Origin: Microbotryum silenes-acaulis
Lineage: Eukaryota > Basidiomycota > Microbotryomycetes > Microbotryales > Microbotryaceae
Assembly (NCBI GenBank): GCA_003665825.1
Contig: QPFY01000001.1
Location: 1,791,001 to 1,855,000 of the forward strand
Direction of reading: 5' to 3'
Length of the DNA: 64,000 bases
In this document: piece by piece, positions 15,531 to 51,600 of the stretch
How positions within the stretch are numbered: the stretch's first letter is position 1
Layout of the letters: every line of letters starts with the position of its first letter
The notes under the pieces: generated by a model
Seen by the model: only the letters and a program-made list of their open reading frames with translations
What the model was told of the DNA's origin: nothing
The model's database searches: none
Program-made: the position numbers and the translations under genes

Positions 15531-15705
15531 GACGACGGGGAAGGATTAGAATGTCGTGTACGAGCTCGCATATTGTATCGCTCTTCTAGTTGCTATCGTA
15601 GAAGGTTTATCTGTGTTATTTCTGGTTTGGTTGGATTCGAGTCTTTATTATTTGTTGCTTATCTAATTTCATGCGAACACGGCTTCACTGAGGGCCGTAG
15701 AGAGC

Positions 15706-16048
15706 GGGGAATTCCACCCTCGGAGGGGAATACCCGAGGTCTCGTCTGGTATTTACAAAAGCGCGCTTGGGTAATACCCGACAGCCTGGTCTTTCCAGGG
15801 CGCCTGGTTTTACCACGCGCCTGGGTATTTCCAGGGCGCAGGGTGTTATTTTCACGCGCGCGCTGATTTTACCCAAGCGCGTGGTAATTCCAGCCGTCAC
15901 TTGGAAATACCAGGCCGTCGGGTATTACCCAGACGCCTGGGTATTTCCAGGTCGCGAGGTGATATCGCCCAGGCCGAAGGAGATTCTGCCCAGGCGCGTG
16001 GTAATACCAGCCGGCACCATTCTTACCATCGCCCGGTGGTTTTCCCAG
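15706..16048. repeat. Left subterminal array of ~19-bp palindromic motifs
   Basis: About 17 copies of an imperfect palindrome around GGTAATACC, GGAAATACC or GGTATTTCC, often flanked as CTGG...CCAG. Cores start near 15707, 15726, 15748, 15770, 15788, 15806, 15824, 15843, 15864, 15883, 15903, 15921, 15940, 15960, 15980, 16000 and 16038, that is every 18-22 bp (one or two slots are very degenerate). AT-rich cores alternate with GCGC-rich spacers, and the cores occur in both orientations. Such arrays in CACTA elements are binding sites for an element-encoded DNA-binding protein; here that is inference. Confidence 0.88.
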
Positions 16049-16652
16049 CCAGGTATGGATCTAGATCCTAGTCATACCGCTACTCTCAGCTGTCTCAACA
16101 TGAGCCAAATGACTTCTAGCCTAGCAGATGGAAAACAGCTGGGAATGGATTACAAGGTCAAGAAATTGGGCCGAGCTTCGTCCTCCAATCGGTCAAAGAT
16201 ATACTCGCGAGGCTCCTCTCGAGTCTCGACCCACCCTCCGATAGATGCGACCAGCTGAGCCTAAGATGCAGCGCAGATCTATAATCTCGAGCGCTCCCAG
16301 AGTTCCTTGACCTCGAGTGAAAAACAAGTTTTGGTGCCTCTGCGCACTGACAACAAATGCAGCCTTTCTTTTTTGCCGCCTTTGCGTTGGCTTGGCCACC
16401 GGAGTCCGCTCGATAGCGTCGACGGCTTCCAATCGACTTAGATTAAGAGACCTGATCTTCCCTACCAGGAAAGTCTGTGGAGTGAGAGGCACAAATTAGC
16501 GTTTGCACGTGAGTCGTCGCCGTCGTCGTCGTCGTCGAATGGGAGCGAGCTAGAGCTGGAGCGGTCCTCGTATTCCAGGTCAGGAGACACCATTCCCCAA
16601 TCAAATGCCGCGTCAAACTGTTGTGTCTCGCGAAAATCTTCTTCGTCCAATC

Positions 16653-17024
16653 CTAGCGCTTGCTCCTCCCCATTGATCCCCCGACCGAAGTAGCTCGCTC
16701 GGACTCGTGATCTCCTTGAGGAAAGTAGGGACCCTTGGGACTGGTGGGCACTCCATATTGCGCTTCATTTGTGGCTGATTGTGGAGGCGAGCGACTTGCA
16801 AACCAACCAGGAGTTGGTGAAGGGGGCTGGAACGATTGGGCCTCAGGAGCAAGCAATGTTGGAGGTTCCGATGGCTGCCGCGAGAACTCGAGGATAGCTG
16901 TTGCGTCGGCTCTGGAAGAGTCAACAGATTGTAGGCGTTTGTGGCGGTAGAACGTTGCTCTTGATACCATTGCATCGTTGCACAACGAACAATGGCATAG
17001 GCGAGAAGACTGGTTGCGTGTCAT
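16653..17024 (-). pseudogene. Zinc-finger-like fragment of a transposon protein
   Basis: The open frame begins at 17024 and reads MTRNQSSRLCHCSLCNDAM, followed by VSRATFYRHKR: a C-x-C-x2-C cluster followed by a Ser-Arg-x-Thr...His helix. I recall a similar pattern at the start of basidiomycete Tnp2/Plavaka/KDZ-type transposases, but this is memory of a pattern, not a search. After about 120 residues the frame stops; a second frame (about 16690-16462) continues with an acidic sequence (LDEEDFRETQQFDAAFDWG) but no plausible intron joins them. I therefore read it as a truncated, frameshifted N-terminus. It is divergent from the gene at 17272, with about 250 bp between them, inside the CACTA-like element. 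Confidence 0.45.
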
Positions 17025-17271
17025 GGTGGCGCAATCGAATGGTTAATTACGGTGAGACGTGAGACTTAGGAGCAACGAACGACGCTAAGTCCGGGAGGCC
17101 ATTGGGGACATTAGGGCTACAGTAATGCGCAATAGGAGCAGCGATTAGGCAGATTTGATTATGTGCGCTGAAGAATGGCGCCATGCGTCCGCGCGCTTCT
17201 TTCCTTCTTTCGCCTTCGATCCACTTGTGCCCACGTCGAAGCTCCACCCTCCCCGCCTACGTCTTCCTACC

Positions 17272-18731
17272 ATGACACGAACATCGTCGACCACGGCAAG
17301 ACGTACAACAAGGATGGACAAGGAGAACGAACCACCGCATGAAAGACGCCCACGTGTGTACAGAGAGCTGAAATCTTCGCGGTCTGCGCCTGCACCGCCA
17401 CAGTTGAGGGAATTTGCTGACGTGTTCTTTTTCGCCGTCCTTCACCATCGGCCCACTGCGGCTACCTGTCTTCTTATTTTCATCCTATTTTTTCAGCCAG
17501 AGAATACGTTGATGGTGATGGTCTTGGGTTCGCGTGAGTACCGGCGGCTCAACGATCGGGGCGCGACGCCATCTCGTCGATCTGACTCCTCAGTGCTCAC
17601 CATCTGTGTGATGTCCTTCGACCAGTCGGTTGTGCGGGATGCCCTAGTAAAGGCAGGCATCACTACCCCCGACCCGATCAACCTTTATGGTCGGCATGCC
17701 GAGGTGAACCAGACGTGGACCCCCGAATACCACACGCCTGAGGACTTCAACCTCGAGGACGCGTTCAGGCTTATTCAAGCCAAAACGCAAATCAACACTA
17801 CTGTTTGGGGACGTCTTGGACCTGCGAAACAACGAGAGATCGTCAAATATGTGAGTTGCGCGGAACCTGCCAGTTCTTGTACGGAGCGTGCGCTTGCTCG
17901 GGCACTCACTTGTCACTCTCGTTCAGATTCGTGAACGCACGGCTTTCTTAAGGGTCACATCGGGCGACTGGCTCTATGAAGAACTTGCCATTGATGTGTT
18001 GGCGAATGTCCGAGCCGCGTATCGACTGCAGTACGACCGTGAGGCCTGTCGGTTGGCGGGGATCATGGGACGGCTTTCCAGGGCGTACATCACAAGATTG
18101 CGCAACGAGCTAGGCGTTGGATCTGCTCTGAAGGTTAGTCACTACTCCCGATTGAACAAGACTGAAAGGCCCGGGGCTCTGAGAATCTTTTGTTGTGCTC
18201 CAGACAAGCGAGCTTGTCTTGTCCGAATCTGACCAGGACCCGGGCGATCTCAGTGAGGAAGACGTGCTGGAGAATAGGAATCGGGTGCTTTTGTCCATGC
18301 CCCCGAAGCGAGCGCCGCAAGCATCAACCTCGCAACAGTTCAGTGCCTCATCGCAACAGTCCCAGCAAGCCAGCGCTCGCGCAGATGGTCGACATGCAAA
18401 GACACCGAATGCAGGGGCGATTTCAAGTCCCGCAGCCCGCGGTCTAAGAGGCCCGGGTCAGTCAAAATCGACGAAGGAGGCGAACGCTAAGCAATCCTCT
18501 CGCATTCGCCAGAAGACCATCACCAGGCGGGTCCGCCGCAGAGAAGAAAGCGAGGAAAAGCAGTTTCGGGAAGAGGAAGAGGAAGAATTAGAGCCGGCTA
18601 AAGGGTATAAGAAACGGGCAAGAGGAGCGGCAGCCGGAGCTTCGGGCGGTTTAGATCTTGGTCAACCTGACAATCCAGACGAATCGGAGGAGCCTTTGAC
18701 GGAAGTGGACACTCAGTTTGCTGCTTTGTAG
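17272..18731 (+). CDS. Unknown protein of the CACTA-like element
   Basis: Not recognised. Five exons: 17272-17421, 17497-17533, 17594-17850, 17927-18133 and 18204-18731, summing to 393 codons (392 residues) with consistent phases. An N-terminal basic segment (MTRTSSTTARRTTRMDKENE) precedes a folded-looking middle region (about residues 75-220) with FDQSVVRDALVKAG, LEDAFRLIQAKTQINTTVW and EELAIDVLANVRAAYRLQYD, all helix-like. The C-terminal third is Ser/Gln-rich, then strongly basic (RIRQKTITRRVRRREE) and finally acidic. The basic part could bind DNA. Because it lies between two arrays of short palindromes inside a transposon, a TnpA-like role at the subterminal repeats is a natural guess, but nothing in the sequence proves it. 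An upstream in-frame start at 17155 is possible. Confidence 0.6.
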
Positions 18732-18780
18732 TGTACCTATATCATAATACAGTAGAAAACCCTGCATTGAAAAACTACAA

Positions 18781-18890
18781 TTCGGATATGAGCATTAGTA
18801 AATTCGAATATGAGCATTAGTAAATTCAAGTGTAAGCATTAGTAAATTCGAATATGAGCATCAGTAAATTCGAATATGAGCATTAGTACT
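18781..18890. repeat. 22-bp tandem repeat, five copies
   Basis: Five consecutive 22-bp units (consensus begins TTCGAATATGAGCATTAG and ends in TAAA) run from 18781 to about 18890. Units 2, 4 and 5 are nearly identical; units 1 and 3 carry one to four changes. It lies between the 3' end of the 392-residue gene and the right subterminal array, within the CACTA-like element. Confidence 0.92.
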
Positions 18891-18977
18891 ACAAAGGTGA
18901 CACCCATTACAAAAAACCTAATGCTAACTGCGCTCGGTCGTGCTCCGCACAAGAGCCCCTATTGAGACTTTTCGGGT

Positions 18978-19163
18978 GGAAATACCAGCTGAGAAGGTTA
19001 ATACCCAACCGACAGAAATACCAGCGGCTTGGGTAATACCCCTCGTGAAGTGGTAATACCCGCGCGGCTGGAAATACCAGTGGGTCGGGTATTACCACCT
19101 CACGAGGGTATTACCCAAGCCCCTGGCATTTCCAGCCGCGCGCCTGGAATTACCAGGCCAAAA
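18978..19163. repeat. Right subterminal array of ~19-bp palindromic motifs
   Basis: Ten cores of the same motif as the left array (GGAAATACC, GGTAATACC, GGTATTACC, GGAATTACC) start near 18978, 18996, 19014, 19031, 19052, 19070, 19087, 19106, 19125 and 19146, that is 17-21 bp apart. The last one lies 13 nt inside the right inverted repeat, mirroring the left end. Confidence 0.88.
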
Positions 19164-19175
19164 AGGCCCTCAGTG

Positions 19176-19758
19176 CTTTGGATGTAAAGGAGCGCCTGCC
19201 AGCCGAGTCCAACGCACATCATTGTTTCGGTTTTGGTCACACGAGCTGTCTTCCTACTGAGGGACGAAGATGTCTGACTAGGCGAGGTGCTCAGAGCAAC
19301 AGTCTCTGGCGTGCTGCACATGAGCTGAGGCCGGTGTGTGCAGACTCAGTACTTAGTAGGACCGAGGCGAAAGTGCAAATCTATCTACATCTACATAAAA
19401 GAATGCACGACAAAATAAGGTTCTCAGCCGCGAAAAGGCTGCAATACCAAAACTTCTCCATCAAATAAGCATTCCAGGCACAGTCTCTCAGGTACACTGG
19501 AAAATGAACTCGGCTCGGTCACCGGGTGGTTTTGAAGTCACGCCCTGACTTCTGACACGGCGTCGCCCGCTGCTCCGGTCGTCTTGCTCCAGCAAAACGC
19601 TGGCAGCACGCTGGCGGGGCCTGGCTCCCCGCCGCCGCTGACCGTTAGTTTCCCCTTCGCTTATCCTCTTCCTCCCGCCGCCGCCGCCGCCGCTGCGTCC
19701 TGTCCGTCGATATACTCGTCTGTGCTTGACTGGCCGTCCTTGCGTGGTTCCCTCAGCC
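19176..19758. other. Intergenic region downstream of the CACTA-like element
   Basis: Starts with the CTT target duplication, then about 580 bp before the next start codon. A (GCC)n-like stretch near 19677-19696 lies in the presumed 5' leader. No gene is recognised. Confidence 0.5.
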
Positions 19759-22919: not shown

Positions 22920-25900
22920 ATGACTGGCGAACAGTCAACCATCGACAAGTCCGTCGACGCAGACCCTCCAACACACTCGCAAACTTCGCGTTTCCCGGCA
23001 TTTGCGATTTTGAAGAACAACAACATCGACGTATGGCTCGATCACGTTCGCTTCACCGTCGACAGGCGTCAGTGGCAGCTCTCCTTTCCCAAGCAGTACC
23101 CATCCGCCAAATGCAAGGACGACGATGAACTCGATCGAGCTCATGATGCGGTGCACAGGGCAATGCATCAAACCTGTTCAGAAAGTGTGGCGCATCTCCT
23201 GGTCAGCTGCTACGACCTGACGCCGGAGCAGACGGTGGAATACCTTCGAAAGCATCTGGGTCGGTCTTCCCTTCGCGGCGTTATCACGCAAATTGGAAAG
23301 TTATTCTCGGTCGGACCGCCACCAGCACAGGAAGACGATTATCTTCCTTGGGCCGGATCCATCACTCGCCTCACAACTGACCTACGGGCTCACAAGTTGA
23401 CGTTCGACCAAGTGGTTGCATGCCACCTCATTGCGATTGTGGGCGCTCGACGACCGTCGTATCTGGATCAGTTCGACTCCAAAGACGTCGATGCGATACC
23501 AACTGTCGACACAGTGATCGCAGCAGGTCGAGCTCCAGCAAACTTGAGTCAAGATACTGGGAACGCTGCGACGGCGTTGTTGGCCACGACTGGTGCCCAA
23601 CCGAAGCCACCCGGCCCCTGCTGGAACTGCGGTGAAGACACCCACTTCAACAAAAACTGTTCCAAGCCGAAGAAGAAGAAGTTTCCACGACGCAAGACGA
23701 CCAAAGGCGAGGAACCGATGGCAAATTTGGCGCTCCCTTCGGTTGAAGACATTCTGGGGACCGATTCCGTTGGCGCGTTTTTCACGCAATTACCAAAAGG
23801 ACACTCTCGAGAAATGATCCTCTACGACACGGCAGCGACTCATCACGTCATCAATAATCCTGCCGCGTTCGCCGACCTGAAGGCGACAGCTCCGTCTTCG
23901 TTAAAGGGCATCAATTGTGACGGAAAGACCATTATGGGAGTAGGCACGGCCTGCGTCGAAGACAAGCACGGCAAGAGGTACAACTTGGTCAACAGCATCT
24001 TCGTCCCTAGCGCCCCCGCCAATCTCTTCGCCGGGCATCGAGCCGATCGTGATAGTCGCAAGATCACCATTCAAAACGGGCGATTCACGGTGGCCGGAAA
24101 TGACGACATCCTACTCACGGGACAGAAGCTCAATTCGGGGTTGTACCGTCTGGACCTCAAGTTGGTTCAAGCTCGGAGTTCACCCCATGAATGTGCGTCA
24201 GCCACAGCTCTGACAGCAGTGCCTCTCCACATCTGGCACGGACGTTTCGCTCATCTACACTGCCGTTCCCTTCACCAGCTGTCCAAGTCTGACGCTGTGA
24301 TAGGTTTGAACATGAAGTCTCGCAGTGACTTGAAATGCGAATCGTGTCTGGCCGGCAAAGCTACGCACAAGCCGTTCCCAAACTCCGAATCGCTAGCCGA
24401 AAAACCCCTCGATCTCGTCCACATCGATCTCTTGTCCTTCGACGGCGAGCTGTCACTTGCAAATCATCGCTACGCGCTAGTTATCGTCGACGATTGTACG
24501 CGGTACATGTGGGTGTTGACGATGCCGCGGAAGTCGGACTCCTTTGAAAGGTTCAAAACGTGGAAACTACGGGTCGAGCTGTCGTCAGGGCACACTTTGA
24601 AAGTTGTCCGTTCGGACCGCGGTGGCGAGTTTCTTTCGACGGAGTTCAAGCGATGGTTGGACGACACGGGTTTGTCGCGACAACTCACGATCCCCAGCAC
24701 GCCCGAGCAAAACGGTGTCGCCGAAAGGGCCAACCGCTCGATTTCGGAAGCAGCTCGAACGATGCTGTATGAATCCGGTCTGCCCACGGTGTTTTGGGCC
24801 GAAGCCGTGGCTACATACGTGTATGTGAAGAATCGTTCCCCACATTCTGCTCTTGGTGGCAAGGTGCCATTTCGGGAATGGACCGGGAAACCTGCGCACG
24901 TTCATCACTTGCGGGTCTTCGGATGTCGAGCTTGGCACACGGCAAATACCGAACAACGTAAGAAACTCCAGCCACGGGGCCTTCCGATGATCTTCCTCGG
25001 ATACGACCTAGAATCCAAAGCCTACCGACTATGGGACCCGGTGAGGGGGCGGTTAACGTTATCGCGAAGCGTGACGTTCTTCGAGGACAAGTTCCCGGCC
25101 CGTGAAGGCGCGCCAGCACCGAGGATTGAGGCGATCGAAGTAGTCGTACCTCGACCAGTTGCGACGAATCGACATGAAGCTGCGCAACAGCCGATCGCTG
25201 CGAACCAGGCCCCGGAGGTCGAGGTAGAAGCCCGGGAGGAAAACCCGGTTGACGACGTTGACCCCGCCGAGCAACATGCACCAATTGTGGAAGATGTACC
25301 AAAGGAGTTGCGTTTTGACGCCCCTGGACCTGCTTGGGCAGCACCGGTCGGAAAGCGGGATCGTAGGGCACCTGAGCGTTTCGAACCGGAGGCCTTCGTA
25401 GCCGTCGCCGATTCCGACGAGGAAGACGGTCCGTTTGTTTTGCCGACTAGTGATCCCACGACTTGGAAGGCAGCCATGGCACACCACAAGTCTCACGAAT
25501 GGGCGCAAGGTGCAATCGATGAGTTCGAGTCATTGCGTGACGATTACTCAGTCTTTACGATTATGAAACGAGACGAGCTTCCCGCCGGCGCCAAGGTTCT
25601 CGGGTCCAAATTCGTTTTCCGAACGAAACGGGACAAGGATGGTCGGCCGACTTCGTACAAAGCTCGACTTGTTGCACGAGGCTTCACGCAACGGCCGGGA
25701 ATTGACTTCAAAGAGACGTTCGCACCGACAGCGAAGTTTGTCTCGATTCGTACTCTCATCGCGTTGGCGGCCGCCCGGGGTTACCATATCATCCAAGCGG
25801 ACATTGACAAAGCCTATTTGCATGGCAAACTTGAAGAGGAATTGTACATGCGCGTACCGGAGGGAGTCCGACTTCCCGACGATGTCTGTCTCAAGTTGCA

Positions 25901-27002
25901 ACGCTCGATTTACGGTCTCAAGCAGGCCGGCCGGGTATGGAACGAGACGATCCATAAGACCCTCGTCAAGCTTGGTTACAATCGTCTTCGGAGCGAAGAG
26001 TGTGTCTATCGTCGGACACTTGGCAAAGACGATTATTACATCGCGGTTTACGTCGACGACTTGCTGTTTGTCGGCCCCGACTTATCCGAAATTGATCGCG
26101 TGCTCGACAAATTGGATCGATTGTACGGAGTCAAACGTCTCGGCAATGCAGAGTACATCCTTGGCGTCCAGCTCATTCGTCAAGCGGATGGGATTGCGTT
26201 GTCGCAACGACAGTATTTGCTCGATGTACTTGCAAGGTTCGGCATGGCGGATGCTAACAAAAGTGTATTACCAATGCAACCGGGTCTTCAGCTCAAACCC
26301 TGCGACACTCCGGATCCCTCGTTACAGACACAGTACAGATCGGCCATTGGATCATTGATGTACGCCGTCGTTGCAACTCGGCCCGATCTTGCATACCCGG
26401 TGTCGTATTTGGCAAGATTCACGAACAAGGCGGGCAGTGACCATTGGGCGGCAGTTGTGAAGATTCTACGCTACATCAAGGGAACTCTCGAACTCGGCAT
26501 TGTCTACAAGACGAAACGTGATTCGTTGGTTGGATACGTGGGGTACTCGGATTCGGACTGGGGTTCCTGCATCAACACGTCCCGATCTACGATGGGGCAT
26601 GTCTTCAAGCTGGCTGACGGGCCAATTTCTTGGAGTTCTCGGATCCAGAGCCGAGTGGCGACGTCATCAACGGAAGCGGAATACATCGGCCTTACTCATG
26701 CGTCTCGAGAGTGTCAGTTCTTGCGGAATTTGCTCGCGGAATTGGGGGTCACGATTTGTGGCCCGATCGAGCTGAAAGGCGACAATCAAGGCGCGATAGC
26801 TCTCACAAAGAATCCGGTGTTCCACGATCGAACTAAGCACCTACGCCTGACCGAGCATTTCGTTCGAGAACGGGTACGAGAAGGTGACATCGTCGTTAAC
26901 TATCTTCCAACCGCCGAGATGCTCGCCGACATGTTTACGAAGGCGTTGCCGAGACCGGCACTAGAGAAGCATAGGGCGGCCATAGGGATGGGAATTATGT
27001 AG
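22920..27002 (+). CDS. Copia gag-pol polyprotein
   Basis: One uninterrupted frame of 1,360 residues encoding all functions of a Ty1/copia retrotransposon. In order: Gag-like region (about 25-210); CCHC zinc knuckle CWNCGEDTHFNKNC (about 234-247); aspartic protease with DTAATHH (about 303); pre-integrase zinc region with LHIWHGRFAHLHCRSLHQL and CESCLAG (about 436-485); integrase catalytic Asp in VHIDLLSF (about 502), Asp in VRSDRGGEF (about 564) and Glu in PEQNGVAERAN (about 597); reverse transcriptase with YVDDLLF (about 1044); RNase H with DSDWGSC, STEAEY and KGDNQGAIAL near the end. The protease-integrase-RT order defines copia. All catalytic residues appear present and there is no frameshift between gag and pol. 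The start ATG follows ACC and lies 66 bp after the left LTR. Confidence 0.96.
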   Translation: MTGEQSTIDKSVDADPPTHSQTSRFPAFAILKNNNIDVWLDHVRFTVDRRQWQLSFPKQYPSAKCKDDDELDRAHDAVHRAMHQTCSESVAHLLVSCYDLTPEQTVEYLRKHLGRSSLRGVITQIGKLFSVGPPPAQEDDYLPWAGSITRLTTDLRAHKLTFDQVVACHLIAIVGARRPSYLDQFDSKDVDAIPTVDTVIAAGRAPANLSQDTGNAATALLATTGAQPKPPGPCWNCGEDTHFNKNCSKPKKKKFPRRKTTKGEEPMANLALPSVEDILGTDSVGAFFTQLPKGHSREMILYDTAATHHVINNPAAFADLKATAPSSLKGINCDGKTIMGVGTACVEDKHGKRYNLVNSIFVPSAPANLFAGHRADRDSRKITIQNGRFTVAGNDDILLTGQKLNSGLYRLDLKLVQARSSPHECASATALTAVPLHIWHGRFAHLHCRSLHQLSKSDAVIGLNMKSRSDLKCESCLAGKATHKPFPNSESLAEKPLDLVHIDLLSFDGELSLANHRYALVIVDDCTRYMWVLTMPRKSDSFERFKTWKLRVELSSGHTLKVVRSDRGGEFLSTEFKRWLDDTGLSRQLTIPSTPEQNGVAERANRSISEAARTMLYESGLPTVFWAEAVATYVYVKNRSPHSALGGKVPFREWTGKPAHVHHLRVFGCRAWHTANTEQRKKLQPRGLPMIFLGYDLESKAYRLWDPVRGRLTLSRSVTFFEDKFPAREGAPAPRIEAIEVVVPRPVATNRHEAAQQPIAANQAPEVEVEAREENPVDDVDPAEQHAPIVEDVPKELRFDAPGPAWAAPVGKRDRRAPERFEPEAFVAVADSDEEDGPFVLPTSDPTTWKAAMAHHKSHEWAQGAIDEFESLRDDYSVFTIMKRDELPAGAKVLGSKFVFRTKRDKDGRPTSYKARLVARGFTQRPGIDFKETFAPTAKFVSIRTLIALAAARGYHIIQADIDKAYLHGKLEEELYMRVPEGVRLPDDVCLKLQRSIYGLKQAGRVWNETIHKTLVKLGYNRLRSEECVYRRTLGKDDYYIAVYVDDLLFVGPDLSEIDRVLDKLDRLYGVKRLGNAEYILGVQLIRQADGIALSQRQYLLDVLARFGMADANKSVLPMQPGLQLKPCDTPDPSLQTQYRSAIGSLMYAVVATRPDLAYPVSYLARFTNKAGSDHWAAVVKILRYIKGTLELGIVYKTKRDSLVGYVGYSDSDWGSCINTSRSTMGHVFKLADGPISWSSRIQSRVATSSTEAEYIGLTHASRECQFLRNLLAELGVTICGPIELKGDNQGAIALTKNPVFHDRTKHLRLTEHFVRERVREGDIVVNYLPTAEMLADMFTKALPRPALEKHRAAIGMGIM

Positions 27003-27229: not shown

Positions 27230-30200
27230 CAAACGACAACAGCCACGGGATTCAATTCATTTACGATGGGCACCCTGCGCTCATGGCCCTGACATATCCG
27301 CTACTGTTACCATACGGCGAAGACTGGTACTACGACAGAATCCCCCTCAGCCAAAATACTTCCGCAACGGAGGCAGCTCGACGGGTGCGGGACGAAGACG
27401 GCGTCTTGCAACACAATGGATAACACCAACGCCCACAATAACCCACAAACCGGGCCGAGCGGCTCGAAACGTGTAACGCAAAACCAATTCAACGCGTACT
27501 ACTTCCATATCCGTCCCAACAATATCAGCTACCCGACATTGTTCCTTGGAGGCCGGTTGTTCCAGAAATTTGTTGCCGACGCCTGGGCACTAACTGAACA
27601 GGATCGGCTTCGGTGGATGAGAACAAATCAAAAAAAGCTCAGAGCCGAAAAGTATTCGTCCCTTCAAGCAAGTCTGGCTGAAGGACTCGATCCCGCGCAG
27701 ATTGGCAAGAGAGTAATTCTACCGTCGTCACACACCGGATCGCCACGCCAAATGGTCCAACTTTACCAAAATGCTATGGCCATCGTTCGTGTTTTCGGTG
27801 CTCCGGACATATTCATCACGATGACATGCAATCCTGCCTGGTCGGAAATCGTCAACGCGTTGCTTCCCGGGCAAGCCGCATCCGACCGTCCCGACATAGT
27901 AGCACGGGTCTTTCACGGGAAATTGAAAGCCCTCCTTGCGGATGTATTAGGCCGTGGCCATGCACCAGGAGTCTTTGGGAAGGTATGTCAATCTGGGACT
28001 CAGTCGAAACAGAGCTGATAGAATGCTCACAAGCCTCAATTCTTTGCACAGGTCATCGCATATGTTTATGTCGTCGAATTTCAAAAGCGCGGGCTGCCTC
28101 ACGCCCACATCCTTTTAATCATGGACCCAGAAGACAAGCCAAAGACAATTGACGACTACGACAAGATCGTTACTGCGGAAATACCGGACCCCGAAAAGTT
28201 CCCTGCGTTGTTTGAGACTATCACAAACTGCATGCTCCACCGGCGGTGTGATCGTCCTGGCAAACATGCGTGCCGCGACGACCATGGGAAGTGTACCAAA
28301 AGGTTTCCTAAACGACTCCAACCGCGGACGACCAGCGAAGACGGTGGATATCCTCACTACCGGCGTCGCGGAATACACCAATATGTCAAATTCCCGGGCA
28401 CAGCGCAAGAAGAAGTTTATACGGATGCAAACGTTGTTCCTACAAATCCGTGGCTTGCTTCCAAGTACAATTGTCATGTCAACGTCGAAATTGCGAGCGG
28501 GGTTGCAGCAGTCAAATATCTCTACAAATATGTTTACAAGGGACACGACCAAACTTCGTTCACGATCGACGAACCCGGAGCTCGAGACGAAATCAACAAC
28601 TTCCTTGACGCTCGATATGTTTGCGCTCCGGAAGCCATTCACCGAATATTTCGATTCGAGATGCACGATCGGGATCCCGCAGTGGCCAGACTCGCGCTGC
28701 ACCTCCCAAATGAGCAGGAAGTTCGGTTCGACCCCGATAAGGGAGCTCCAGATCTATCAGCCCCACCGGAGACAACGTTAACCGCCTTCCTGAAACTGTG
28801 CGCCAAGACACCTCCTGATCTCAACGCGCAAGGATTGCTCTACGCCGACGTGCCGACCCGATTCAGGTGGAACAGCGAAGATCGAGCTTGGGTGCCACGG
28901 AAAAGGGACAACCGGACAATCGGAAGAATCTTTTTTTGTGGTCCTGAAGGCGGCGAGCGGTACTACCTGAGACTGCTTCTTCTCAAGGTTCCTTCACCGA
29001 CAACGTTTGCGCATCTGAGGACGTTCAACGGTGTTGAGTTTCGAACCTTCCGGGAAGCCTGTGTCGAACGGGGACTCCTACGCAACGACGCTGAAGCCGA
29101 CAGATGTCTGACCGAAGCGGCGATCTTCCGCACTGGGCACGAGCTGCGGCACCTGTTTGCCATGCTGTTAACGGCCGATGATGGAGTGACAAACGCGGCG
29201 CAGTTGTGGACGAAGCACTATGACAACCTCACCCAGGACGTCGAGTACCACCTCCGAAACCAAAGGCAACAGATGATGATCACGCCCGAGCATGTCGCTA
29301 ACTGGGGGCTGCTTCAGCTCAACAATATTCTCCAACGGCTCGATTCCTCATTAGCAGACCACGGTCTACCGTTGCCAACAATCCAGTTCGATGACGAAGC
29401 TGCAACAAACCGTCTTATTCTGGAGGAATCAGCGACACCAGCGGAACTTCACGAAATGGATGCGCTCTGGAGAAAGAACATTGAGTCGTGCAACACCGAA
29501 CAACGCATTGTTGTTGAAACCGTTCTTGACTCAATCCTGAACAACCGCGGAAAGGTCTTCTTCATCGATGCTCCAGGAGGGACAGGCAAAACGTTCTTGG
29601 AAAAAACGATCCTTGCTCGGATTCGGTCCGAGGGAAAATACGCTCTTGCCGTTGCATCATCGGGTATTGCTGCACTGCTACTGCCAAAAGGACGAACGGC
29701 ACATTCACGGTTCAAGATCCCGATCGACATCTTCGACGACTCTACGTGCAACGTTCCGAAACAAGGACAGCTCGCCGAGCTTTTTCAGATGTGCGACTTG
29801 ATCGTCTGGGACGAAGCACCGATGCAGCACCGTCGATGTTTCCAGCTGGTGGACAGGATGTTGCAAGATGTGCGATCCTCAACGGCTCGATTCGGTGGAG
29901 TGACCGTCGTGTTGGCAGGTGTGTTGCATTCTCTCTAAAGACAGCGCAGGGCAGAACTGACCGGCTCTGCTGTAACCTCACAGGGGATCCGAAGCAATGC
30001 CTTCCCGTTATTCCCAAGGCATCGCCTGCACAGATTGTCGACGCTTGCATCATGAATGCTGACTTCTGGGGAGAAGTCGAAGTACTGCGTCTCTCTGTAA
30101 GTGGAGACTCCTTACCTGCCTTTGAAACCCTATACTGACAGCCTGCGGTGCGAGCTCAGACAAACATGCGTCTTCTGGCCGCTGCAGATCGCATGACCGA

Positions 30201-48680: not shown

Positions 48681-51600
48681 TTAAAGGAACGGCCATCGCT
48701 TCTCAAGGTCCCTAACGGAAAAGACGCCATATTCGTTTAAGAACTGCCTCCTGTACCTCGCCGCACGCTTCCCCCTCCGCTGATCAATCTGCGCATGCGC
48801 CTCGGGTGTCCCATCCAAAACAATGACATCATCATCATAGCTCCACGCATTCTTCTCGATCCATCTCTTGAGCCGGTCATAATCCTCCGTCCCGGGTCCA
48901 GGTCGAAAAGGGTACGTCCCGTCCTTCCTCCGGGTGAACCATTGGCACGCGAGATCGAGGCCTTCATAGTTAGGAGGGGCCGAGATGGCGAAATACAAAT
49001 CGCAGGCGCGGCGTTGCTTGAGGCCGTAGCGCTTGGCGAAAATCCTCATGCTGTCCTTCAATTCTAGCCCGGTGTCGGCTCCGGATGTTTCTGCGACCGG
49101 GTCGGATTCCACCTTGACTTTGGGTGACAGCGCTGTAGCGGCGAAAGGGGTGGGGCCGCTGTGGGAGGGGCGGGGGGTCGATGAAAGTCGTTGACGCTTT
49201 GCGCCGTTCGATGGTTCTTCCGGTAGGAGATGTGAGGATGGGTGCTGTTGCGGTGTACCATTTTGAGACGACGGCTGAAGTTGTGGGGTAACATTTCGTG
49301 ATGAAGTCTGCTCCAGACTTGCCCTCGGTCTCTTGCGATTCGACATCGGCTCGCCGCTAAATCTCGAGATGGAAGGAGATCGCATCGCATCTGGGCTGTG
49401 GTGCTGAGGCATCGGACTCGCCCTCGCCAGAGGCATCGGAGAAGACCTTTTCGCGTCAGCCGCTTCCTCGGCCGCTTTCCTCCTCTCCATATCTGCGACC
49501 CTGGAGGCCATTTCCTGAGCCGCTTCCGCCGCGATCCGTGCCTCGTATTCCCGATTCGTCTTCACAACCAGTCGGTTATTTTCCGCCGCCTTCTGGGCTT
49601 TCAGCCGTTCGTCGCGTCGTTGCTTCTCCTGAGCCGTTCGAACCATCTGCTCAGCAGCGAGCCGGACCCTCTCCCTCTCCCTTTCCTCGACCGCAGCCTT
49701 GGCTTTCTCCCTCTCCTCCAACTTTTGCTCGGCGTCGTCGAACCAATTGACCTGTCGCCAGTCGAGATACGTCTCGAGAAAGTCGTATTCGGCTTGATGT
49801 GACTCGAACGGCTTCGTACTCGAGTTGGGACCGGTGGTGGAAGTCCAGTTGACCCCGGCTACGGGTTGTGGCGTCCCCAGCAGCACGGGCGGTCGATGAA
49901 CGCCGTTGAGAGCAGCAGCTTGCAACTGTGCGTCCATCCTTCGATCATCCTCGTCCTGCAGCTGTGACAAGACTTCCATAGGGACCGCAGTACTAGAAGC
50001 ATTCGTCACTGTCGTCTGGGTCAAGTTCGTCTTTGTCAATTCAAATTCAACAACTTGAACGGTCGTCGTCGAGGCAGCAGGTGCAGGGCCAAGCTGAGCG
50101 GAAAGAGTAGGCACCGAATCTTGGCTTTCGCCGAGGAAAGGGGACGGCCGTCTTGGGGAGCCCTCCGACGCTACCATCAGCGCATCACCAGATACGTCTC
50201 TACTGGAATCGGCATGCGGCACACAAGGAGGAGGAGTGGCACTCGGGGTCGGAGGCGAGGGCTGGGGATCATCCATCCTGGCTTGAGTCGACGGACCCGC
50301 TTGTGTCGGGCCAGGTGCAGGTCCCGTATCCGAGCCTCCGAGTTCAGGCGATGCTTCAGTCGTCGCATTCGTCGGTTGTGTTACCGGCGCTGTGAGTACC
50401 GCGACCTGCTTCGTGGGGGACATTGCCGGTGTCGTTGTTTTGGGCCGTCCGGTCGAATCTTCTGCTTGAGGCACAGGGGTTTCGAGCGAGGGCATTGAAG
50501 CAGTCTTAGGAGAAGTGGATTTCGTGGTATCTTTGGGTTGCGAAAGTATCATCGGGGAGGCGGTCGAGGTAGCGACGACAGCATCGACCTCGGGTGTCTG
50601 GGCGCGTTGTTTCGGTGCCGATGCGGGAAGGCTCTGAGCACTCGCATTTTTCGTTGTGGCTGCGGGTGGTATGTCGGGACTTTGCAACTGCTCCACTGTT
50701 GGAGCAGCTGTTGCTGGTGCTAATGATGGTGCTGATGTTGATACTGATACTACCGCCGGTAGAGTTGGTGTTGCTGATTCCGCTGCTGGTAGGTGTAGAG
50801 ACGACAAAGGCACGAGCGGTTTGCCGGGGGGCTTGGTCGCTGGCAGGGCGCTCTTCTGCGGTTCACTCTTGCCGAGTTCCGAATCTGGTAGTGCTACTAT
50901 CGGCTCTGGTGCTAGTGCCGGTAAGGATGCTGCTGCTGCCTTGCTTGAAGTGGGTATTGGCTCCGGTCCAGCTTCCTTCTCGACCGTCGGTTTTCGGCCA
51001 AGCATAAGATCACGCGCCGTATTCGTTACTCGGGGAAGCAATCGGATCTTGTTGGTGGTGAAGTACTCTTTCCATCGTTGTGCAGTATGTCGAGAAGTCT
51101 AAATATCGTAAAAGTAGATGAGCATCGGTCTCTGTGCAGGAATAGGGACGAGATGAGACTCACCTTCTTTGCCAGTGCGGGCCACGCTTCGGATCGCTCT
51201 CGGTCCTCATTCTCAATGACAGCCAGCTCCAGCACCAACATTCGCTCGTCGGCGTCTGTGAACACCGCAGTGTTTGCCGTGTTCGATGTCGAAGCTGCAG
51301 TTGATGCCAGCGGTGTCGCTGTCTCTTCGGTCGATTTCCTCCGAGCTGGATCGCTCTTTCGACGCGCCCTCTTGGCGTCGCCGTCATCGTCAGAGTCGGT
51401 TTCGAGACCCTGCGTCGCCTGCCGCTTTTTGCCCTTCCTATCGACGTTGGCAAACGGCTTTGTCTCTTCCTGTTGCGTCAAAGACGAGTTGCTCGTACGT
51501 GGTCGTGCTGCAGATGGTGGTGGTGGTGATGCTCGTTGCGTCCCTTGCGACATTGGGTTCCTGTGCTTGTCGGCCTCGATTTGTTTATTCAACCAATGGA

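Follow-up and report, generated by a model that had tools for sequence, protein, structure and literature searches.

A 64,000-nucleotide stretch of the Microbotryum silenes-acaulis genome (assembly GCA_003665825.1, contig QPFY01000001.1, positions 1,791,001 to 1,855,000; hereafter the window, with positions counted from its first letter) carries a CACTA-type element of 3490 bp at 15686-19175, and comparison with its sister copies indicates that this element is very probably a non-autonomous copy, derived by internal deletion from a CACTA (En/Spm, EnSpm) transposon. The sisters were found by searching one genome of 29.85 Mb, in which the transposon family is small and falls into two subfamilies. 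Membership of the family in CACTA is well supported. Specifically, i) CACTG stands at both ends (CAC..GTG) in 7/7 copies with both ends and a duplication; ii) 3-bp target-site duplications flank 7 of the 8 end pairs located; iii) both ends carry subterminal repeats; and iv) full-length sisters encode a tnp2 (PF02992) transposase, the part of the element which the window copy lacks. The original prediction, made from the window alone, had proposed a CACTA-superfamily element. Two findings confirm it: other copies share these ends but have differing 3-bp duplications, and the sisters carry a PF02992 transposase in which the D/D/E, C(2)C, and H(3)H motifs are present.

Termini, copies, and insertion sites

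The perfect 11-bp inverted termini, the flanking CTT duplication, and the AATTCC starting 13 nt inside each terminus are all as first described (Table 1). An exact match to the terminus is present at 20 places in the genome, whereas the reversed pattern is present at 6; some of the 20 are lone sites without an array. Searches with left-end and right-end sequence recovered copies on several contigs. Both ends and a perfect duplication are present in four copies of the window subfamily (the window copy, CTT; L009, TGC; L010, AAA; and L011, GAA, the L numbers being our handles for loci) and in three copies of a second, diverged subfamily (L054, TCG; L055, CTG; L056, ATG). The lack of any second copy had been named in advance as an outcome that would refute this reading; instead, several further copies with these termini and differing duplications exist in the same genome.

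L009 sits within a Ty3-type reverse-transcriptase frame, and when its flanks are joined minus one TGC, one open frame runs through the join. Three copies, L020, L022, and L023 (contigs C21, C35, and C46), are more than 99.9% identical at aligned columns, have their right flank in common, and have lost the left terminal 6 bp to a flank ending in the palindrome CTCGCCTTAAGGCGAG; for these reasons they look like copies of one locus, whether by segmental duplication or as duplicate contigs, and hence offer no test of target-site duplication. L013 is a broken mini-copy: in a short fragment at 501-700, its left array is fused to a portion of the right array with nothing in between, and the stretch analysed shows no right terminus. 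C-to-T changes in TCG, counted as a sign of repeat-induced point mutation (RIP), make up 0/20 singleton changes in the window copy, 1/21 in L010, and 1/22 in L020; these are few changes, counted over the ten commonest change classes per copy in a MAFFT alignment of a kind that misaligns across the 3.2-kb gap described below.

The transposase of full-length sister copies

The 6869-bp sister L009 matches PF02992 Transposase_21 (tnp2) with an E value of 2e-14 and 53.8 bits against a cut-off of 28.6, and the genome holds PF02992 matches in 6 places, 4 of them above cut-off. The L009 transposase, read as 1020 aa from an internal ATG through 8 GT-AG introns, is 73% identical over 1035 aligned columns to residues 200-1220 of P0005 (1221 aa). 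P0005, which resembles the transposase, and P0001, which resembles the second protein discussed below, are both unnamed hypothetical proteins of Microbotryum silenes-dioicae; proteins related to the family are annotated in that species and in M. lychnidis-dioicae. In an alignment of 13 of the 26 related proteins with three L009 exons, where counts refer to rows having a letter at the column, the D/D/E columns read D 14/14, D 14/14, and E 9/9, and the Cys and His motif columns read C(2)C in 12/14, the first H of H(3)H in 7/9, and the second in 10/11. This arrangement of D/D/E, C(2)C, and H residues is the EnSpm-group pattern given in PMC12730594, and because of that match we presume D/D/E to be the catalytic residues. 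Searches of Rfam, PDB sequences, and NCBIfam returned no matches, and a Pfam match of the transposase first exon to Myc_target_1 fell below cut-off and was not used. In another M. silenes-dioicae protein, P0006, transposase pieces are joined to copia-type retrotransposon sequence.

Assignment to one of the sister groups of CACTA, Plavaka for example, instead of EnSpm is highly improbable for this element. Pfam includes a Plavaka model, and a scan of P0005 at E values up to 1 returned Transposase_21 (tnp2) only and no match to a Plavaka-type model. C(2)C and H(3-4)H are common to EnSpm, Plavaka, Transib, and others (PMC12730594) and would thus fit a sister group too, but CAC..GTG ends and 3-bp duplications are the features by which the same source assigns elements to EnSpm (PMC12730594).

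Some observations do weigh against reading the window copy as a deletion derivative of a CACTA element: an eighth pair of ends, L015/L057, which also has CACTG ends, lies 14.2 kb apart with unequal flanks (AAC and AGA); no empty-site copy of L009 was found elsewhere in the genome, where only L009's own two flanks matched; and a splice scan of L009 did not join the Cys/His-rich first exon in frame to the catalytic part. Because of this last result we do not claim L009 to be fully intact.

A deletion shared by five copies

The window copy is co-linear with L009 apart from about 3.2 kb missing between element positions 826 and 830, and the missing sequence includes all three presumed catalytic positions. 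The copy is thus non-autonomous, as had been suggested, since it is without the transposase catalytic core. It still holds pieces of both ends of the transposase gene; the last residues of the 3′ remnant are in another frame than in L009. The original prediction had found no known transposase, a statement which is right for the window copy, whose core is deleted, and wrong for the family, whose sisters carry the PF02992 transposase. Its suggestion of an element with an unfamiliar gene set is rejected, because in the sister copies the 3.2 kb absent here proves to contain the tnp2 core.

The deletion junction is common to five copies (the window copy, L011, L014, L015, and L016), with a GTC run of varying length. 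How it came to be shared can be approached through 102 sites at which L009 and L020 agree and L011 differs. At these sites the window copy is L009-like in 11/11 up to element position 343 (L011-like in 0/11), L011-like in 13/17 between 513 and 1038, around the junction, and L009-like again in 71/74 from 1081 onward (L011-like in 3/74); the clustering statistic for L011-like sites was reached in 0/5000 permutations. A 150-bp block comparison had pointed to a wider L011-like region, and is superseded by the count of informative sites. This mosaic suggests that the deletion probably reached an L009-like window element from an older derivative, by gene conversion or gap repair. The alternative, that the five copies share the deletion only through transposition of one derivative and that the mosaic reflects chance or unequal rates, draws on the different flanks of the five loci; we consider it unlikely given that the informative sites are strongly clustered around the junction, while elsewhere the window copy hardly differs from L009. 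The two processes, transposition and conversion, are compatible, and each may have contributed to the sharing of the deletion.

The deletion, probably passed on by conversion or gap repair, took the catalytic core and spared both ends, both arrays, and the second gene. The window copy would then be moved in trans by the tnp2 enzyme that L009 and other full-length sisters encode, which would cut and paste at the 11-bp termini and leave 3-bp duplications.

Subterminal arrays

Scored at 7 or more of 9 matches to GGWAWTWCC, the two arrays hold 17 sites on the left and 10 on the right, in agreement with the numbers first estimated; an additional 18th left site, at element position 385, falls outside the tabulated 17 because its flank ran beyond the stretch analysed. 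Adjacent cores are mostly 17-22 bp apart. The pattern was picked after the array had been inspected, and with that proviso exact cores number 7 on the left against a shuffle mean of 0.014, and 7 on the right against 0.02 (maximum 1 in 500 shuffles each), with 0 in the element interior and 1 in the remaining 59.5 kb of the window; with one mismatch allowed the numbers are 12, 10, 1, and 24, respectively. GGWAWTWCC is present again at both ends of the second, diverged subfamily, and a core with at most one mismatch starts at nt 22 in all 14 ends of the 7 copies with perfect duplications. Left ends of the second subfamily have an additional core starting at nt 13.

The repeat had been described as a degenerate palindrome of about 19 bp, and here the original prediction needs revision. 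Over the 27 sites, dyad symmetry is strong across about 9-11 bp: the sites that pair number 21, 12, 22, 25, 18, and 6 at offsets 1 through 6, in that order. Pooling offsets 5-9 yields 62 pairs where shuffles average 48.3, a total equalled or exceeded by 6 of 2000 shuffles, so that a weak symmetry extends beyond the core. Near-perfect palindromes of 14-15 bp show no clear excess (2 on the left compared with 1.2 in shuffles, and 2 on the right compared with 0.8), and perfect 19-bp palindromes are unsupported outside the 9-11-bp core. A value near 19 bp fits the repeat period better than it fits the length of a palindrome.

A second gene on the opposite strand

A second gene, with three mapped exons and possibly others upstream, occupies the plus strand in a head-to-head arrangement with that of the transposase. 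Both subfamilies retain it in this orientation and arrangement, and some second-subfamily pieces of it have in-frame stops. A homology search with its protein found 4 relatives among 6941 scored candidates, all from Microbotryum, including P0001, which is 52% identical over 83% of the query; a Pfam match of P0001 to PriX was below cut-off and was not used. P0003, also from M. silenes-dioicae, consists of second-protein pieces joined to copia-type retrotransposon sequence; the P0003 and P0006 fusions are nested insertions or gene-model fusions.

The ratio of non-synonymous to synonymous substitution rates (dN/dS) was computed on the first two mapped exons (435 nt), leaving out L012, L014, L022, and L023. 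It is 0.11-0.25 in 12/12 comparisons between clades (the window copy, L009, L010, and L020 against L011, L016, and L057), and 0.51-0.65 between subfamilies, over part of the exons; the window copy and L009 differ by 1 synonymous and 0 non-synonymous changes in the 435 nt. The between-clade values indicate that purifying selection has acted on the second gene as the clades of element copies diverged.

What the second protein might do is suggested by maize Spm, where TNPA recognises the subterminal repeats and both TNPA and TNPD are needed (PMC2613891), and where deletion derivatives move in trans if they keep the cis sequences (PMC2613891). By this analogy the second protein may be a TnpA-like factor for the arrays, which would bind the dyad cores and help to pair the ends; we put this at a little short of an even chance. 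Several results count against the TnpA-like step: the second protein has no family match above cut-off in Pfam or NCBIfam and no relative among PDB sequences, and its structure model is uninformative (mean predicted local distance difference test score, pLDDT, of 38), for which reason the model was not used. The evidence for selection, for its part, comes from 435 nt, and dN/dS within clades ranges from 0 to 2.2, on few changes.

The arrays could instead be read by the Cys/His-rich first exon at the N-terminus of the transposase itself, leaving the second protein to another job, for example countering silencing, and we regard this as possible, if rather doubtful. The first exon with its Cys/His-rich segment is kept in the window copy and, as open matches to P0005, in L014, L015, and L016, and the second protein has no recognisable DNA-binding domain; yet the repeat-binding protein of Spm and related plant elements is separate and fast-diverging (PMC2613891, PMC8195511), and the second gene here is retained by both subfamilies in one orientation. 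Nor does it seem likely that the second gene was captured from the host and plays no role in transposition, as its want of a transposon-related domain might suggest: its head-to-head placement in both subfamilies, the purifying selection between clades, and the fusion of 1 of its 4 database relatives to copia-type sequence all speak against capture, although no search was aimed at a single-copy orthologue in the host, away from the elements.

Returning to the TnpA-like interpretation, a derivative such as the window copy would, as in Spm, retain what mobilisation needs, and may still make the partner protein. More broadly, and tentatively, with the balance of probability somewhat against it, we propose that this is a lineage of fungal CACTA elements whose end-binding protein is its own and unrelated to others, encoded by a head-to-head gene so far seen only in Microbotryum, which would read a dyad core placed 22 nt from the termini and repeated every 17-22 bp; derivatives without the catalytic core would keep this gene and a truncated transposase N-terminus, and the deletion would spread by gene conversion. 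Since they keep both, such derivatives could regulate or compete with autonomous copies.

Comparison with other CACTA elements

The family has in common with maize En/Spm and other plant CACTA elements the CACT ends, the 3-bp duplications, the tnp2 gene in full-length copies, the subterminal arrays, and the deletion derivatives that keep their ends (PMC2613891, PMC8195511). It differs from them in three respects: TnpA and TnpD of Spm come from one transcript by alternative splicing, whereas the second gene here is on the strand opposite the transposase gene, in a head-to-head arrangement; relatives of the second protein were detected in Microbotryum only, TnpA having been compared through family and database searches alone; and the repeats are built on a GGWAWTWCC core with dyad symmetry. 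Divergence of subterminal repeats, and of TnpA-like proteins, is documented (PMC2613891).

CACTA elements are already known from fungi (PMC1636069, PMC12810828, PMC12730594). Another basidiomycete, Cryptococcus neoformans, has CNIRT6, a CACTA element that is active and measures about 7.5 kb, with terminal repeats starting with CACTG and a DDE transposase (PMC12810828); but its terminal repeats are 24 bp long, and the description on which our comparison draws mentions one gene and no subterminal array (PMC12810828). EnSpm elements of rust fungi (Puccinia and relatives) belong to the same subphylum and share 5′-CAC..GTG-3′ ends, 3-bp duplications, C(2)C, and H(3-4)H (PMC12730594); they differ, on the published description alone, in that three of their families carry a TET/JBP dioxygenase (PMC12730594), a domain which Pfam did not recognise in the element pieces scanned.

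Titles and opening lines of abstracts in the literature searched describe no CACTA element in Microbotryum. According to PMC12210899, CACTA elements occur only in Pucciniales among the Pucciniomycotina compared; PMC10502011 and PMC4469406 report elements with terminal inverted repeats in Microbotryum, and the words CACTA and EnSpm are absent from their main texts, though supplements may annotate such elements. The second gene and the repeat motif look new within CACTA. A Microbotryum CACTA family in which a transposase, 3-bp duplications, and deletion derivatives occur together makes a compact and testable case, which bears on the co-evolution of CACTA transposases and their end-binding partners outside plants.

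Features of the window

Table 1. Mapped features of the window copy and its insertion site (window positions)
Feature	Position	Strand	Remarks
Left target-site duplication, 3 bp	15683..15685	.	CTT
Left terminal inverted repeat, 11 bp	15686..15696	+	CACTGAGGGCC; perfect
Left subterminal array	15707..16046	.	17 sites scoring 7/9 or better against GGWAWTWCC, 7 of them exact; first core starts at nt 22 of element
Remnant of tnp2 gene 3′ end, part of last exon	16193..16492	-	matches P0005 residues 1114-1200
L011-like tract, element 513-1038	16198..16723	.	L011-like at 13/17 informative sites; rest of element L009/L020-like
Acidic tnp2 segment, second frame	16462..16650	-	runs into deletion
Deletion junction at GTC run	16511..16515	.	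~3.2 kb present in L009, L020, L022, and L023, missing in window copy
tnp2 first exon, Cys/His-rich segment (CHCSLC...H)	16653..17024	-	matches P0005 residues 2-85 at 50%
Second gene, first mapped exon	17623..17850	+	start approximate
Second gene, second mapped exon	17927..18133	+	
Second gene, last exon	18204..18731	+	with stop codon
Tandem array of 22-bp unit	18779..18888	.	AATTCGAATATGAGCATTAGTA, 5 copies, just inside right array
Right subterminal array	18978..19154	.	10 cores, 7 exact; outermost core at nt 22 from right terminus
Right terminal inverted repeat, 11 bp	19165..19175	-	reverse complement of CACTGAGGGCC
Right target-site duplication, 3 bp	19176..19178	.	CTT

Elsewhere in the window, an open frame of 1360 aa (22920-27002, plus strand) begins about 3.7 kb from the element, and we take it to be a copia-type retrotransposon polyprotein, with integrase-like and reverse-transcriptase-like text; another of 605 aa (28121-29938, plus strand) is presumably part of a Helitron-type helicase. 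A gene on the minus strand at 48681-51041 is 94% identical to a Microbotryum lychnidis-dioicae protein.

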